Source: Epilithonimonas caeni DSM 17710 (GTDB lineage: Bacteria > Bacteroidota > Bacteroidia > Flavobacteriales > Weeksellaceae). Taken from it: a DNA stretch of 64,000 nt. Numbering within the stretch: position 1 is the stretch's first letter; each line of letters starts with the position of its first letter. Below the pieces are notes generated by a model. The model had not been told where the DNA came from. It did not search any database and worked only from the letters and a program-made list of their open reading frames with translations. The stretch covers positions 186,001 to 250,000 of the forward strand of contig NZ_AUFK01000009.1 of the NCBI RefSeq assembly GCF_000426465.1, given 5' to 3'. Shown here piece by piece: positions 48,904 through 53,523 of the stretch. A program made the position numbers and the translations under genes.

Positions 48904-48975
48904 GGTTTCTTTAGCTTATTTGGTAAAGCATCGGTTTGTGGTACCGGAGAACAGGGTTCGATTCCCGGAGAAACC
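48904..48975 (+). tRNA. tRNA-His(GUG)
   Basis: Folds as a cloverleaf with the extra 5' G-1 (48904) opposite C73, an acceptor stem GTTTCTT/GAGAAAC, D arm TAGCTTATTTGGTAAAGCA and an anticodon loop TTGTGGT in the stem CGGT/ACCG. The T arm loop is TTCGATT. CCA is not encoded; the next bases are CAA. G-1:C73 is the His identity feature. Confidence 0.88.
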
Positions 48976-49039
48976 CAAGTATTCGTGAATACCATAAACG
49001 AAATATAAGATTAATGAACAATCCTTCTGAGATTACAAA

Positions 49040-49099
49040 AGATTCACGGAAAAAATTTGGCTACGACTGTCTCTCGGAAAAGAATTTTGAAGTGAATCT
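49040..49099 (+). ncRNA. Hairpin 5 bases upstream of tRNA-Pro
   Basis: AGATTCAC (49040-49047) pairs perfectly with GTGAATCT (49092-49099), and inside it AAAATT pairs with AATTTT. It may be a processing or folding element of the primary transcript. Confidence 0.4.
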
Positions 49100-49104
49100 G
49101 AAAA

Positions 49105-49176
49105 CTGGAAAGATAACGGTGGTTGTTTACCCGCCTTGGACGCGGGAGGTCATAGGTTCGAATCCTATTTTCCAGA
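49105..49176 (+). tRNA. tRNA-Pro(UGG), unusual D arm
   Basis: Acceptor CTGGAAA/TTTCCAG, A73, anticodon stem CCCGC/GCGGG with loop CTTGGAC, T arm ATAGG-TTCGAAT-CCTAT. C1:G72 and A73 are Pro features. Odd points: base 8 is G instead of U, and the D stem is only about three pairs (AAC/GTT). It may be a divergent or tRNA-like copy. Confidence 0.75.
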
Positions 49177-49181
49177 CAATT

Positions 49182-49253
49182 GCTCCATTCGTCTAATGGT
49201 TAGGACGTCTGCCTTTCGAGCAGAGAACAAGGGTTCGATTCCCTTATGGAGTA
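49182..49253 (+). tRNA. tRNA-Glu(UUC)
   Basis: Acceptor GCTCCAT/ATGGAGT with a G1-U72 wobble, D stem GTCT/GGAC, anticodon loop CTTTCGA in stem TCTGC/GCAGA, T arm AAGGG-TTCGATT-CCCTT, A73. It starts 5 bases after tRNA-Pro. Confidence 0.85.
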
Positions 49254-49286
49254 CAATTAATTAATGTTAATTGTTTCAAAGAGAGA

Positions 49287-49355
49287 AAGAAAAGGTTTGT
49301 CAAGAGCAGGAGTTCTTTAAACAAAACACAAATTACAATAGACAGACTTTTTCTT
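49287..49355 (+). ncRNA. Inter-tRNA hairpin 1 (15-bp stem)
   Basis: AAGAAAAGGTTTGTC (49287-49301) pairs completely with GACAGACTTTTTCTT (49341-49355), including two G-U pairs, around a 39-base loop. Its loop contains GCAGGAGTTCTT and AAATTACA, both nearly repeated in hairpin 2. The shared loop and changed but still paired stem suggest a real RNA family. Confidence 0.55.
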
Positions 49356-49418
49356 AACTCGAAATTAAAATGTAATTGAGAAATCTATTATCGTTCATCG
49401 ATTATTATTTATAAAACT

Positions 49419-49500
49419 GATGGTTCGCCGAAGTGGGAGAGTCGGGGCGGTCTGCAACACCGTTGTGAAAACTGAGTGGGTTCGAATCCCATCGCCATCT
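49419..49500 (+). tRNA. tRNA-Cys(GCA)-like RNA with enlarged variable region
   Basis: Acceptor GATGGTT/CGCCATC (last pair mismatched), D stem CCGA/TCGG, anticodon loop CTGCAAC in GCGGT/ACCGT, T arm GTGGG-TTCGAAT-CCCAT. Between anticodon and T stems there are 12 bases instead of the usual 4-5 for tRNA-Cys. It may be a divergent tRNA or a tRNA-like RNA. Confidence 0.7.
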
Positions 49501-49526
49501 CAAATAATTAAAATGAGATTAGTTCC

Positions 49527-49603
49527 GAAGAAAAAGTGAAGTTTGTCGAGCGCAGAAGTTCTTACATCAAACCAAAAATTACAGACAGGCTTTATTTTTC
49601 TTC
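49527..49603 (+). ncRNA. Inter-tRNA hairpin 2 (20-bp stem)
   Basis: Positions 49527-49547 pair with 49584-49603 over 20 bp with one bulged A, around a 36-base loop. The loop has GCAGAAGTTCTT and AAATTACA as in hairpin 1. The stem contains several wobble and exchanged pairs relative to hairpin 1, an indication of conserved structure. Confidence 0.6.
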
Positions 49604-49644
49604 AAAAAAATAGTTGGATAAAATTACTTATCAACTTTCAATCT

Positions 49645-49718
49645 GCGGGGATGGCGGAACTGGCAGACGCACTTGATTTAGGTTCAAGAAATTGAGGGTT
49701 CGACTCCCTCTCTCCGTA
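49645..49718 (+). tRNA. tRNA-Leu(UAG)-like RNA with a short variable loop
   Basis: Acceptor GCGGGGA/TCTCCGT (G1-U72), Leu-type D arm (GGCGGAACTGGCAGACGCA), anticodon loop TTTAGGT in CTTGA/TCAAG, T arm GAGGG-TTCGACT-CCCTC, A73. The variable region is only 5 bases (AAATT), whereas bacterial tRNA-Leu normally has a long class II arm. It is followed 46 bases later by the YkuK-family gene. Confidence 0.75.
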
Positions 49719-49764
49719 CTTCAATTTAACAATTAAACAAAACAAATTCAAAAATGTAGAAAAA

Positions 49765-50267: not shown

Positions 50268-50816
50268 ATGAAAACAACAGATAAAATATTAATTATAGAC
50301 CTCGAAGCCACGTGTTGGAATGACCGACCGCCGAGAGGACAGGAAAGTGAAATCATAGAAATCGGAGTTTGTATTATGGATACAAAAACTGGTAAGATTT
50401 CGCAAAACGAGGGAATTTTAGTAAAACCTCAATACTCAAAAGTGAGTCCGTTTTGTACGGAACTGACTTCCATTACACAAGAAATGCTTGATGAAGAAGG
50501 TGTTTTGCTGGAAGATGCTCTAGGTATTCTAAGAGAAAATTATGAATCCGAGGATTTGACTTGGGCAAGCTATGGAAACTACGATTTGAATATGCTTCAA
50601 AATCAGGCAAGAAAATTCAAGGCTGATTATCCTTTGAGCTATGACCACATTAATGTGAAAACTTTATTCGCTGAACTGCATCCAATCAGAAAAAGTGTAG
50701 GAATGGATAGGGCATTGAAAGAATTGAAATTCCCTTTGGAAGGAATCCATCACAGAGGAGTTGATGATGTGAAGAATATCGCCAAGATTCTATTTTGGTG
50801 CCTGCAAAGAGCTTAA
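50268..50816 (+). CDS. DEDDh 3'-5' exonuclease (KapD/ERI-1-like)
   Basis: 182 residues, single exonuclease domain. Exo I DLEATCWND (Asp and Glu ligands), Exo II ASYGNYDLNML and Exo III HHRGVDDVKN (His and Asp) are all intact, so it should be an active Mg2+-dependent 3'-5' exonuclease. DEDDh enzymes of this type trim RNA. It precedes the TROVE gene, which fits a role in processing Ro-bound RNA (inference). Confidence 0.88.
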   Translation: MKTTDKILIIDLEATCWNDRPPRGQESEIIEIGVCIMDTKTGKISQNEGILVKPQYSKVSPFCTELTSITQEMLDEEGVLLEDALGILRENYESEDLTWASYGNYDLNMLQNQARKFKADYPLSYDHINVKTLFAELHPIRKSVGMDRALKELKFPLEGIHHRGVDDVKNIAKILFWCLQRA

Positions 50817-50882
50817 TTGCAAAAAACATCAAAATTTTTAGTAATTAATTTTACTACGCAAGAACATTGCGCAATTAGGTTT

Positions 50883-50890
50883 TTACTTTG
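50883..50890 (+). promoter_or_regulatory. -7 promoter element of the TROVE gene
   Basis: TTACTTTG, the same variant as in the leader promoter at 48650. It lies 61 bases before the ATG at 50952; the -33 part is weak. Confidence 0.5.
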
Positions 50891-50951
50891 CATCAGAAAT
50901 AAGAGAGAATTGATAATCCTCCAAAATGTTTTAACAATAAAAACAGTAATT

Positions 50952-52469
50952 ATGAAATTTAATTTTTTAAGAAAATCAAATAGAGTAGTAACCAACTACG
51001 AAGGTGCAGAGGCTTACACAATGACGCCTGCAGAAGAACTATACAGTGCTGTTGTTACAACAGGATTATCAAACGCAACCTATGAAAAAGGAAATGACAG
51101 ATTGGCGAGAATCCAATCTCTGATTCAGAAAAACGACCCGGATTTCGTTGCGAAATTGGCGGTTTATGCAAGAAAAGATATGTATTTGCGTTCGATTCCA
51201 TTGGTGTTGACAACTGAATTGGCAAAACAAGCTTCAGGTACAGACTTGGTAAGCAAAACAATTGACGGCGTTATCCAAAGAGCTGACGAAATCACAGAAT
51301 TGTTGGCGTATTATCAATTGGCAAACGAAAGAACCGAAACGAAAAAACTGAACAGGCTTTCAAAACAAATCCAAAAAGGTTTGGTGAAATCTTTCAACAA
51401 ATTTGATGAATACCAGTTCGCAAAATACAACAGAAAAGCGGAAGTAACTTTGAAAGATGCTTTGTTCTTGGTTCACCCAAAAGCAAAAGATGAAAATCAA
51501 CAAGCAATTTTCAACAAAATCATAAACGACTCGTTGGAAACACCTTACACTTGGGAAGTTGAACTTTCGGCTTTGGGTCAGACTAAATTTGCCGATGATG
51601 CAGAAAGAAAATCAGCTTTCAAAAACAAATGGGAAGAACTGATTTTCAGCAGCAAATTGGGTTATATGGCAACATTGAGAAACCTTAGAAATATCTTGGA
51701 GGCCAACGTTTCTTCCGATGCGATTTATAAAGTTTGCAATTATTTGTCGGATGAAAAAGCGGTTATAAACTCAAAACAATTGCCATTCAGGTTTTTGTCG
51801 GCGTACAGGGAATTGAAAAACAGCGATTCAAAATACACTTCGTCGATCTTGGAAGCATTGGAAGATGCGGTAATGGTGAGTGCAAAAAACATCAGAGGAT
51901 TTGGCTTCGAAAGTTCGGTGGTGATTGCGACAGACGTTTCCGGTTCGATGCAGAAAGCAATTTCTCCAAAATCTAAAGTATTGTTGTACGATATCGGTCT
52001 GCTGATGGCGATGATGTTGCAGTCGCAGTGCAAAAACGTGATTACAGGTATGTTTGGTGACATTTGGAAAATAGTTCCGATGCCGAAAAATGGTATCCTG
52101 AGAAACGTAGATGCGTTTTACAAAAGAGAAGGTGAAGTTGGTTATTCCACAAACGGTTATCTTGTGATCGAGGATTTAATCAGAAGAAATGAAAAAGTGG
52201 ACAAAGTAATGTTATTTACCGATACTCAATTGTGGAACAGCAACGTAACCAATGATTCTTTTGAATATTCCTGGAATCGATATAAAAAAATCAATCCAAA
52301 TGCGAAATTGTATATTTTTGATTTGGCAGGTTACGGAAAACAGTCGTTGGATGTCAGAAAAAATGATGTTTATCTTATCGCTGGCTGGTCCGACAAAATC
52401 TTCGATGTACTGAATGCTTTGGAAGACCGAAAATCTGCAGTAGAAATGATTAAAAAAGTGGTGCTGTAA
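50952..52469 (+). CDS. rsr: TROVE-domain RNA-binding protein, bacterial Ro60 orthologue
   Basis: 505 residues from the ATG that begins KFNFLRKSNRV; a longer frame from 50817 overlaps the promoter and is rejected. The N-terminal TROVE domain is a HEAT-repeat ring (about 20-315, with KLGYMATLRNLRNI at 235-248) that binds misfolded RNA 3' ends in its cavity and Y RNA on its surface. The C-terminal vWA domain has an intact MIDAS DVSGS (328-332). Four Y-type RNAs follow downstream. Ro in bacteria works with 3'-5' exonucleases in RNA maturation and decay. Confidence 0.93.
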   Translation: MKFNFLRKSNRVVTNYEGAEAYTMTPAEELYSAVVTTGLSNATYEKGNDRLARIQSLIQKNDPDFVAKLAVYARKDMYLRSIPLVLTTELAKQASGTDLVSKTIDGVIQRADEITELLAYYQLANERTETKKLNRLSKQIQKGLVKSFNKFDEYQFAKYNRKAEVTLKDALFLVHPKAKDENQQAIFNKIINDSLETPYTWEVELSALGQTKFADDAERKSAFKNKWEELIFSSKLGYMATLRNLRNILEANVSSDAIYKVCNYLSDEKAVINSKQLPFRFLSAYRELKNSDSKYTSSILEALEDAVMVSAKNIRGFGFESSVVIATDVSGSMQKAISPKSKVLLYDIGLLMAMMLQSQCKNVITGMFGDIWKIVPMPKNGILRNVDAFYKREGEVGYSTNGYLVIEDLIRRNEKVDKVMLFTDTQLWNSNVTNDSFEYSWNRYKKINPNAKLYIFDLAGYGKQSLDVRKNDVYLIAGWSDKIFDVLNALEDRKSAVEMIKKVVL

Positions 52470-52500: not shown

Positions 52501-52577
52501 GAGCTTAATCCCGCTTTCCACTATATCTTTTTCTTTTTTGAGAAAAAAGAAAAAGGATGCCGTTGCAATCGGGGCTA
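52501..52577. repeat. Palindromic flavobacterial intergenic element
   Basis: Two related ends (TTAATCCCGCTTTCC and GGATGCCGTTGCAATCGGGGC) flank a perfect 13-bp hairpin, CTTTTTCTTTTTT (52527-52539) with AAAAAAGAAAAAG (52543-52555). This element type recurs in flavobacterial genomes as an isolated intergenic unit. It may also terminate rsr transcription. Confidence 0.5.
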
Positions 52578-52595
52578 TAAATAAAAACTACAAAA

Positions 52596-53048
52596 ATGAA
52601 AAATATAACTTTAGATTTTATAAAAGGAATTTTATATGCATATGCAGACTTAAATACTCCAAATAGTAATTTATCTTATGAATATGAAATAATCGAAATG
52701 GAATTAGAAAAAGATGAATCTATTTTTTTTAGAAATCAATTTCAACTTCCAGAAGAATGTTTGTTTATTATTAAGGATATTAACTTTGAAGAATTTCAAA
52801 AGTCTCTAAATAATTGGTTCTTCAAAAATGGTGAAATTCTTAATTTAAAAATCAATGAAAGAAGAGAAGATAATTACATCAAATTATTTTTCAATAACTT
52901 AAATGATTTGATATGTATTAAAGATATTAAAACAGTGGAATTTAGCCATACCAATGAAGTGTATTATGAATTAGGAATTTATTATGAATATTTTTTCATA
53001 GAAGGAGATAAGAATAAATATCTTATCTATTTTAAATATGAAGATTAA
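52596..53048 (+). CDS. Protein of unknown function in the Ro locus
   Basis: 150 residues, acidic, no signal or membrane segment, rich in Ile, Asn, Glu and aromatic residues. Composition is more AT-rich than the rsr gene, suggesting later acquisition. No family recognised. It lies between rsr and the Y RNA cluster, so its product may belong to the same system or be a passenger. Confidence 0.55.
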   Translation: MKNITLDFIKGILYAYADLNTPNSNLSYEYEIIEMELEKDESIFFRNQFQLPEECLFIIKDINFEEFQKSLNNWFFKNGEILNLKINERREDNYIKLFFNNLNDLICIKDIKTVEFSHTNEVYYELGIYYEYFFIEGDKNKYLIYFKYED

Positions 53049-53057
53049 TAAAAAACA

Positions 53058-53131
53058 AACCGATGCCGTAAGAAAAGAAATCCTTCGACTTCCAATTGAA
53101 AAATGAGTCTTTTCGCAAATTGCTCGGTTTA
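53058..53131 (+). ncRNA. Y RNA-like RNA 1
   Basis: AAACCGA (53058-53064) pairs with TCGGTTT (53125-53131). A bulge of TGCCGTAAG on one side and CGCAAATTGC on the other separates it from an inner stem AAAAGA/TCTTTT (53074-53079, 53109-53114). The loop starts with CTTCGA. The bulged lower stem with CCG on the 5' side and an ACTTG-like 3' side is the Ro-binding design of Y RNAs. Confidence 0.65.
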
Positions 53132-53136
53132 AATTA

Positions 53137-53219
53137 GCCAATGTCGTATATAAGAGTTTCTTCGACCAATTAGAATTTGAACTATGTTCATAAAGAACTC
53201 TTAGCTTATTACTTGGTTT
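53137..53219 (+). ncRNA. Y RNA-like RNA 2
   Basis: AGCCAA (53137-53142) pairs with TTGGTT (53214-53219). The bulge TGTCGTATA faces GCTTATTAC. The inner stem TAAGAGTT/AACTCTTA is a perfect 8 bp (53152-53159, 53197-53204). CTTCGA follows the stem. It starts 5 bases after RNA 1, so both may come from one transcript. Confidence 0.65.
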
Positions 53220-53296
53220 TATAAAATAAAAACAATAACCATAAAAACTTAAAAAAGTAAGTCTCTGTTTGATTTTTTACCTTACTTCAAAAACCA

Positions 53297-53369
53297 TCGA
53301 TGCCGTAAAAAAAGAGTTACTTCGATTTTCCATTGAACTAAAAAAGCTCTTTTTGCAACTTGCTCGATT
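53297..53369 (+). ncRNA. Y RNA-like RNA 3
   Basis: ATCGA (53297-53301) pairs with TCGAT (53365-53369), followed by a T run. The bulge TGCCGTAA faces GCAACTTGC, nearly identical to RNA 1. The inner stem AAAAAGAG/CTCTTTTT is 8 bp. The loop again begins with CTTCGA. A T run after the outer stem can act as terminator. Confidence 0.7.
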
Positions 53370-53385
53370 TTTTTAAAATAAAATG

Positions 53386-53523
53386 ATCAAGTGTCGTCTT
53401 AGAGTCATACTTCGATATCCAACCATTATGTCGCAGGTTCGATTCCTGCCTTTTCTCTCATAAAGGAAAAGTAGCTCAGTTGGTAGAGCAAATGAAAGAC
53501 TCTATAATTTATTACCTTGATCT
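53386..53523 (+). ncRNA. Y RNA with tRNA-like module (YrlA type)
   Basis: GATCAAG (53386-53392) pairs perfectly with CTTGATC (53517-53523); the bulge TGTCGTC faces TAATTTATTAC; the inner stem is TAGAGTC/GACTCTA (53401-53407, 53499-53505). Beyond it lie CATT/AATG as an anticodon-stem remnant, a T arm GCAGG-TTCGATT-CCTGC (53434-53450), an acceptor-like stem CTTTTC/GAAAAG closed by an 8-base loop, and a D arm GCTC-AGTTGGTA-GAGC (53475-53490). The T half precedes the D half, a circular permutation of a tRNA, as in bacterial YrlA RNAs. Confidence 0.85.

Follow-up and report, generated by a model that had tools for sequence, protein, structure and literature searches.

A predicted YrlA-class Y RNA carrying a circularly permuted tRNA module in a Ro60-associated Y RNA array of Flavobacteriales, and the likely regulatory link of Ro60 to rtcB–rlaP

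What is an RNA that carries the arms of a tRNA in the wrong order, placed beside a Ro60 gene, and does it stand alone? We addressed this question in a 64,000-nucleotide stretch of the Epilithonimonas caeni DSM 17710 genome (hereafter, the window). The original prediction had placed a Y RNA with a permuted tRNA module near an rsr gene, reading five helices (outer, inner, T, acceptor and D) at positions 53386–53523. All five are present in the sequence, while the positions were shifted by one base: the element, which we call Y4, spans 53385–53522 on the plus strand, as supported by the Rfam family RF02553, its fold, covariation and a model, R1. Its outer stem, the predicted Ro60-docking site, pairs 53385–53391 with 53516–53522 (seven pairs, from sequence pairing). 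The stem is followed by a Y-type interruption, TGTCGT opposite TTAC, which includes the pair U53394–A53514. Of 73 distinct alignment rows, 66 have U-A and seven have C-G at the equivalent place. The inner stem (53400–53406 with 53498–53504, seven pairs) takes the position of the anticodon arm of a tRNA. Next come the T arm (53433–53449; T loop TTCGATT, with C53432 at position 48), an acceptor-like stem of seven pairs (53450–53456 with 53465–53471) closed by the 8-base loop CTCATAAA, and U8, A9 and the D arm (53472–53489, the arm proper being 53474–53489), in which G18 and G19 are present and G53479 occupies position 15. The order of T arm, acceptor stem and D arm is thus a circular permutation of that in tRNA. 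The anticodon loop is absent from Y4, its place being occupied by the Y stem, and ARAGORN makes no tRNA call at this position.

Y4 matches the Rfam YrlA model (RF02553) over the full model, with 40.4 bits and an E-value of 3.4 × 10−7 (1181 bases scanned). The proposed Rfam check therefore returned the expected family, yet below its gathering score of 69 bits. Because of this score, the default whole-window Rfam scan omits Y4, and we term it YrlA-class by anatomy rather than filing it under RF02553. The same model reached at most 43 bits in the ten relatives' loci scanned, and the Y RNAs of many Bacteroidota fall under the Rfam threshold wherever scanned. The fold energy of Y4 has a z-score of −3.3, with two of 200 shuffles equally good, and R1 scores it at 142.6 bits, although Y4 itself went into building R1.

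Covariation in homologous loci, on which the original prediction had staked itself beforehand, is present. In an alignment of 74 short-loop sequences (the window and 73 from relatives), in which pairs were counted for a specified structure, 94.5% of cells were paired and 19 of 31 pairs had changed on both sides, a number reached by none of 500 shuffles, which treat related genomes as independent. Slid versions of the structure paired in 41–53%. Pairs changed on both sides occur within the outer, inner, T and acceptor helices alike. The outer stem (helix 1) is paired in 99.4% of cells, with both-side changes in four of its seven pairs, and the permuted tRNA arms (helices 3–5) in 91–100%. Helix 2 is paired in 86.8%, a value affected by MAFFT, which misaligns the inner-stem part in some rows, including the window's. 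The D arm is near-invariant in this alignment and hence little informative. A segment-based count, independent of the MAFFT alignment, found 27 distinct acceptor helices in 67 short-loop modules (window included), with 85% of cells paired versus 74.5% in shuffles (maximum 81%).

A further test of the tRNA-like shape is provided by bases 15 and 48, which we take to be the Levitt pair of tRNA. Permuted modules were recognised with a script that seeks a T arm, an acceptor and a D arm and gives a bonus for a purine at position 15, but is blind to position 48. The 130 modules recognised comprise 110 of 120 modules of class C1, 18 of 34 of class C4, one of six of class C9 and one singleton. Positions 15 and 48 are G-C in 104 of them and A-U in 26, with no mixed case. 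Counting distinct modules, 128 of 128 have one of the two pairs, while 2000 shuffles gave a mean of 86.6 and a maximum of 100, a comparison that is generous because the sequences are related. The two states without a mixed case speak for an L-shaped elbow.

The neighbouring gene was correctly placed by the original prediction at about 0.9 kb: the Ro60 (Rsr, TROVE) gene occupies 50952–52469 on the plus strand, and Y4 lies 0.9 kb downstream of its end. Its product matches Pfam TROVE with 102.8 bits, and its AlphaFold model (pLDDT 80.7) has the Ro60 fold: the 13 PDB chains matched at E ≤ 0.001 are without exception Ro60/TROVE, including Xenopus Ro, human Ro60 and Deinococcus radiodurans Rsr (2nvo). 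The match to vWA_Ro60 (26.6 bits) falls slightly under the cut-off of 27.7, and the NCBIfam Rsr model gives 24.4 bits against a cut-off of 900. Residues D328, S330, S332, T400 and D424, presumably the MIDAS, do not vary among 18 sequences. Together, these matches and residues agree with the product having the Ro60/TROVE ring fold with a vWA domain and a MIDAS. The Ro60 of Epilithonimonas arachidiradicis is 95% identical to it.

Upstream of Ro60, all on the plus strand, are a DEDD 3′–5′ exonuclease gene (RNase_T; 50268–50816), an RNase H-like gene (PF04308; 49765–50250) and a cluster of five additional, divergent tRNA genes (His, Pro, Glu, Cys and Leu; 48904–49719). Within the available flanks of 82 related loci, RNase_T occurs in 23 and the RNase H-like gene in seven, and we therefore claim no general linkage of either to Ro60. 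The five tRNA genes are second copies, the others being located elsewhere in the genome; in one related locus (L068) the equivalent cluster holds eleven tRNAs. Such a spare tRNA set in the Ro60 island would fit a role in RNA damage. PADLOC matched the exonuclease and the WYL protein described below to CRISPR-associated models, and an RlaP to a weak candidate model, with no match for Ro60 or RtcB. A PNPase gene was found in the host genome (assembly of 4.11 Mb).

The picture of a single Y RNA held for Y4 itself but missed its setting. Four Y RNA-like elements follow the Ro60 gene in succession, Y4 being the final one, and they belong to a system of array and operator that extends well beyond the order. 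The other three are plain Y RNAs on the plus strand, all located with a Y-stem finder: Y1 (53057–53130, fold z −2.9), Y2 (53136–53218, z −1.6, 14 of 200 shuffles equally good) and Y3 (53296–53368, z −2.2). Their common design opens with an outer stem and TGYCGT, continues with an inner stem and a CUUCG-like box, and ends with N-N-R-C and the closing strand of the outer stem, Y and R of both strands being matched, as the finder demands. In the 64-kb window it returned four elements on the plus strand and none on the minus strand, and none in each of 40 dinucleotide shuffles. In the full-length relatives' loci it returned 422 on the Ro60 strand, none on the opposite strand and none in one shuffle each; four minus-strand matches fall outside the full-length loci counted. 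A few Y RNA ends are misassigned by the finder, for example at L022 7694 and L041 6456. Between Y2 and Y3, at 53256–53287 on the plus strand, is the 3′ remnant of a fifth Y RNA of class C4, a permuted-tRNA type: its 32 bases are all identical to the 3′ end of a class C4 Y RNA of relatives, the rest of which is lost from the window's array.

Including the window, 81 of 83 Ro60 loci contain Y RNAs, two to eleven each and 456 in total. The two without them are L014 and L045, where the contig continues for 0.2 kb and 1.7 kb after Ro60, respectively. Successive Y RNAs are separated by a median of 12 nt (n = 375), and the order of Y RNA classes is alike across loci. The window's array is a reduced one, with three plain Y RNAs, one of permuted type and the 3′ remnant. 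Two other features lie between Ro60 and the Y RNAs of the window. An open frame of 150 amino acids (52596–53048, plus strand) has no Pfam match and was not found in the 82 other loci. A Flavo-1 RNA (RF01705, 77.8 bits) lies directly 3′ of Ro60 on the opposite strand (52503–52580, minus); in the five loci scanned, Flavo-1 also follows Ro60 in L069, L077 and L013, and falls below gathering in L068.

Clustering of the 456 Y RNAs revealed what their loops carry. There were 141 plain Y RNAs, plus two doubles, each read as a single one. Permuted-tRNA Y RNAs comprised 68 with a short acceptor loop, 45 with a long loop and seven further permuted ones, and C4, a second permuted type, had 34 members. 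T arms with a hairpin (52) and mini T-hairpins (12) formed further classes, as did two unexplained modules, the T-loop module "Q" (C3, 48 members) and "U" (C5, 14 members). Small classes were C7 (7), a 23S-like class (7), C9 (6), C10 (4) and nine singletons. The T-loop consensus is present in 258 of the 456 Y RNAs. By module isotype comparison, D arms were closest to Phe, Lys and Met and T arms to Pro and Gly; the class labels Gln, Glu and Cys are names of convenience rather than isotype assignments. In C4, both-side changes occur in 12 of 31 pairs, one of them inside the D arm (79% of D-arm cells paired), and one of five covariation measures, that of further pair types, was no better than shuffles. 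In Q, 20 of 29 predicted pairs show a both-side change at least once, 14 of these within the Y stem. This class, exemplified by L077 7900–8032 (48 loci), has a conserved core that runs from GGGGAGGAATAGCGAAG to a T loop, and Rfam gave no match for the one C3 module queried. For U, exemplified by L069 8297–8428 (14 loci), no relative was recognised, as for Q.

The 23S-like Y RNAs, 226–232 nt long (L010 7603–7834, L069 8713–8940 and five more loci), share 26–33 nt with 23S rRNA, from CGTAACTATAACGG onwards, at 88–100% identity (best E-value 1.2 × 10−12), a piece that we take to be the helix 69–70 region. The reference was the 23S rRNA of two relatives, as the host's own was not found in the draft assembly. 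As Smith–Waterman scores of the remainder against 23S rRNA stayed within the shuffle range, we count only the 26–33 nt piece as 23S-like. An Rfam search with one such Y RNA gave a single match, attributable to chance. Of the 45 long-loop Y RNAs, 44 have A-C directly after the 3′ strand of the acceptor, resembling a tRNA discriminator base and the beginning of CCA; cleavage of the loop by RNase P and tRNase Z might give a Y RNA in two pieces whose acceptor end is free. An example is L010 8714–8870, and weak Rfam tmRNA matches (17–18 bits) occur at long-loop Y RNAs in L013 and L069. Chryseobacterium loci also have permuted tRNA modules chained together 5′ of Ro60, behind the candidate operator described below (L013 1207–1610); the chain was inspected in L010, L011, L013 and L018, and an upstream operator and module also occur in L010–L012, L018, L019, L024–L026 and L069. 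ARAGORN calls no tRNA in this upstream chain, and the Rfam tRNA model matches it partially, with 36–47 bits (L013 and L069).

We determined how far Y4-like RNAs and Ro60 occur together. Within the order (296 genomes), 25 genomes have an R1 match of at least 60 bits and the identical 25 contain Ro60; the next-best genome reached 51.6 bits. Within the genus, five of 23 genomes have R1 matches of at least 60 bits and four have Ro60. Every one of the 23 genus members gives weak R1 matches, mostly of about 30–38 bits; the genome that contains the window has two, both spanning tandem tRNA genes, and only matches of at least 60 bits were therefore counted in genus and order. One genome of the genus, G006, has a Y RNA at 155.8 bits yet no TROVE match. 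Its locus (L135 8277–8506) holds two Y RNAs, one plain and one YrlA-class, beside a tRNA-Arg, and retains the flanks (the bpX3 gene, the next gene, and the tRNA-Arg, HTH and peptidase genes). Missing from it is the tRNA cluster, along with the genes for the RNase H-like protein, the exonuclease and Ro60, and this gene content would most simply be explained as a deletion scar. At the level of the phylum, TROVE was found in 24 of 395 sampled genomes. Outside the order, R1 matches of at least 50 bits occur at 13 of 15 Ro60 loci, always on the Ro60 strand, 12 of them downstream and one upstream (L180), and non-identical Y4 relatives there exceed 90 bits.

Chance or artefact is ruled out for Y4 by the shuffles, the empty minus strand and the covariation, and three other explanations were weighed against a Ro60-bound Y RNA. 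That Y4 is a functionless junction of two tandem tRNA genes, by chance or as a relic, is suggested by the weak R1 matches across all 23 genomes of the genus, the two in its own genome spanning tandem tRNAs, and by the tRNA cluster within the same region. We nevertheless hold it to be extremely improbable: its outer, inner, T and acceptor helices all have both-side changes, of which those of the outer and inner stems contradict a junction outright. Relatives also maintain the array order, and the 142.6 bits of Y4 (a sequence in the model) are accompanied by scores above 90 bits for non-identical relatives outside the order. A permuted tRNA gene, whose transcript would be cut and joined into a working tRNA, would have the same arm order, and the discriminator-like A-C in 44 of 45 long-loop relatives recalls one. 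ARAGORN moreover calls a tRNA on part of one Y module (L080) and undetermined tRNAs in three more Ro60 loci (L174, L176 and L177). Against this, the ends of Y4 form a Y-type stem instead of an anticodon arm and the anticodon loop is missing. ARAGORN is silent at Y4 and at the other Y-array modules checked alongside that of L080, and an ordinary complement of tRNAs (44 matches) is encoded in the genome, making a tRNA gene very improbable.

The third explanation is a decoy rather than an adapter, in which tRNA-, T-arm- and rRNA-like loops absorb nucleases or modifying enzymes and Ro60 merely stabilises the Y RNAs. Several mimics per array, among them the 26–33 nt copy of 23S rRNA, would suit such a role, as would G006, where Y RNAs are retained without Ro60. 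YrlA has been suggested as a competitive inhibitor of an anticodon nuclease (PMC7790460). However, the part of a tRNA that cleaving enzymes usually attack, the anticodon loop, is lacking in the modules. The docking stem is common to all module classes (the finder requires it by construction), and RNA and Ro60 co-occur in 25 of 25 genomes of the order. We regard a decoy as unlikely.

How might Ro60 and its Y RNA array be controlled? Before Ro60, at 50855–50873 on the plus strand, lies the palindrome TACGCAA-N5-TTGCGCA, a candidate operator, and 3′ of it the promoter-like element TTACTTTGC (50883–50891, plus strand), which we take to resemble the Bacteroidota −7 box. In a slightly degenerate form with one mismatch permitted, the palindrome precedes Ro60 by 60–130 nt in 80 of 82 loci, and in most of these a TTACTTTGC-like element comes next. 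In the two exceptions (L055 and L072) the Ro60 match starts late and a palindrome site is near by. In 42 of 82 loci the palindrome also stands 20–80 nt upstream of a Y RNA. The total of 218 sites compares with 2–4 in three rounds of shuffling. In the window there is no palindrome directly before the Y array, even at four mismatches, and a scan for sigma-70-type promoters gave 7 versus 6.9 in shuffles. With neither palindrome nor promoter excess at the array, its expression may rely on read-through of 587 nt from Ro60.

Searching the whole genome of the window with an extended pattern and up to three mismatches returned exactly two sites, both perfect: the one before Ro60 and another 56 nt before rtcB. 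The rtcB gene is followed by two rlaP genes and is on a contig other than that of Ro60. A WYL gene lies 0.5 kb from the rtcB palindrome on the opposite strand, separated from it by a small gene (1987–2319 of L184). Relatives of this WYL protein occur in 20 Ro60 loci, namely 12 of 13 in Flavobacterium and eight of 15 outside the order; the window has none, and neither do the other 69 loci across their available flanks. Ten of 13 Flavobacterium loci encode RtcB 3′ of the Y array within the available flank, and in five of these 10 the palindrome precedes rtcB by 57–103 nt. Outside the order, the palindrome is found 47–67 nt before Ro60 in nine of 15 loci. All eight loci with a WYL gene are among the nine, the ninth being L166, and the remaining six have neither palindrome nor WYL gene (Fisher p = 0.0014, with related genomes treated as independent). 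The RtcB proteins encoded beside Ro60 fall into two groups, about 60% or about 27–31% identical to that of the window's genome, a division that contrasts L170 and L174–L177 with the Flavobacterium loci and L167–L169 and L171–L173.

YrlA RNAs, their circular permutation and the link between Ro60 and RtcB are already known. The YrlA structure 6CU1 is a circular permutation of tRNA (PMC11472068), and YrlA of Salmonella and relatives (RF02553) has, like Y4, a Y-type stem with permuted T, acceptor and D arms and an adjoining rsr. Salmonella has YrlA and YrlB (PMC9879122), compared with an array of four in the window and up to eleven in relatives, and a palindromic, predicted WYL-associated operator before Ro60 distinguishes the present locus. 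According to PMC7790460, the Salmonella operon rsr–yrlBA–rtcBA puts Ro60, Y RNAs and RtcB under one control, as is likely here, and is induced when broken tRNAs bind RtcR. In the window's genome, by contrast, rtcB–rlaP is on a separate contig and shares the palindrome, RlaP follows rtcB, and a WYL protein is the likely regulator in place of the CARF-domain protein RtcR of Salmonella. WYL domains have been predicted to act as sensors of nucleotide ligands (PMC4012209). According to PMC4726728 and PMC8394870, Ro60 binds the lower stem of the Y RNA and the Y RNA tethers PNPase, as in RYPER of Deinococcus radiodurans, where it links Rsr to this ring-shaped exonuclease; the tRNA mimicry of YrlA also suffices for modification by TruB and DusA (PMC8394870). 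RYPER is a single tether, whereas here there are several Y RNAs with different loops, and a PNPase gene is present in the genome. Ro60, palindrome and Y RNA array are common to the window and the Flavobacteriales loci L005–L086. Our literature search found nothing on Y RNA arrays of Flavobacteriales or Bacteroidota, nor on a WYL–Ro60–RtcB regulon; parts of either may be described in the principal primary literature (Chen 2014, Wang 2018, Sim and Wolin 2018, Burroughs and Aravind 2016). As far as could be checked, the diversified array and the WYL/RtcB link appear to be new.

Building on what was observed directly (the anatomy, covariation, 15–48 pair, array, co-occurrence with Ro60, shared palindrome and WYL gene near rtcB), we consider it probable that Y4 is a YrlA-class Y RNA in an array whose Ro60 is likely co-induced with rtcB–rlaP by a WYL-type regulator. 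The Ro60 gene and the rtcB–rlaP RNA-repair operon would then likely be switched on together, with the WYL protein taking over the part of RtcR. The outer stem of Y4 is predicted to dock on Ro60, the inner stem replacing the anticodon arm, and Ro60 and Y RNA may form an adapter in which the constant stem grips Ro60 while the variable loop displays a mimic, of tRNA in Y4 and in relatives of other RNA too. The mimic could recruit an enzyme that handles tRNA, or a nuclease (PNPase, for example), and tRNAs broken by RNA damage might in this way be sorted to decay (Ro60 and exonuclease) or to ligation (RtcB and RlaP). Ro60 would acquire different partners through the different Y RNAs of an array. 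For Bacteroidota Ro60 loci in general we tentatively suggest that up to eleven Y RNAs, arranged as an ordered library, combine a common docking stem with interchangeable mimics that direct Ro60 to different partners, and that they are WYL-induced together with RtcB and RlaP, for stress-switched RNA triage. As part of that same tentative reading, the mimics would range from permuted tRNAs, whose elbow pair is of two kinds, and T-arm hairpins to an element of 23S rRNA and modules without a known relative, and the permuted modules may derive from tRNA–tRNA junctions of the island's tRNA cluster.

One docking stem with many natural loops amounts to a ready-made experiment on the roles of Ro60–Y RNA complexes, in which each module is expected to capture its own partner and thereby reveal them. 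The shared palindrome would join Ro60 and RtcB in one regulon despite their separate location, and it points to a testable regulator.
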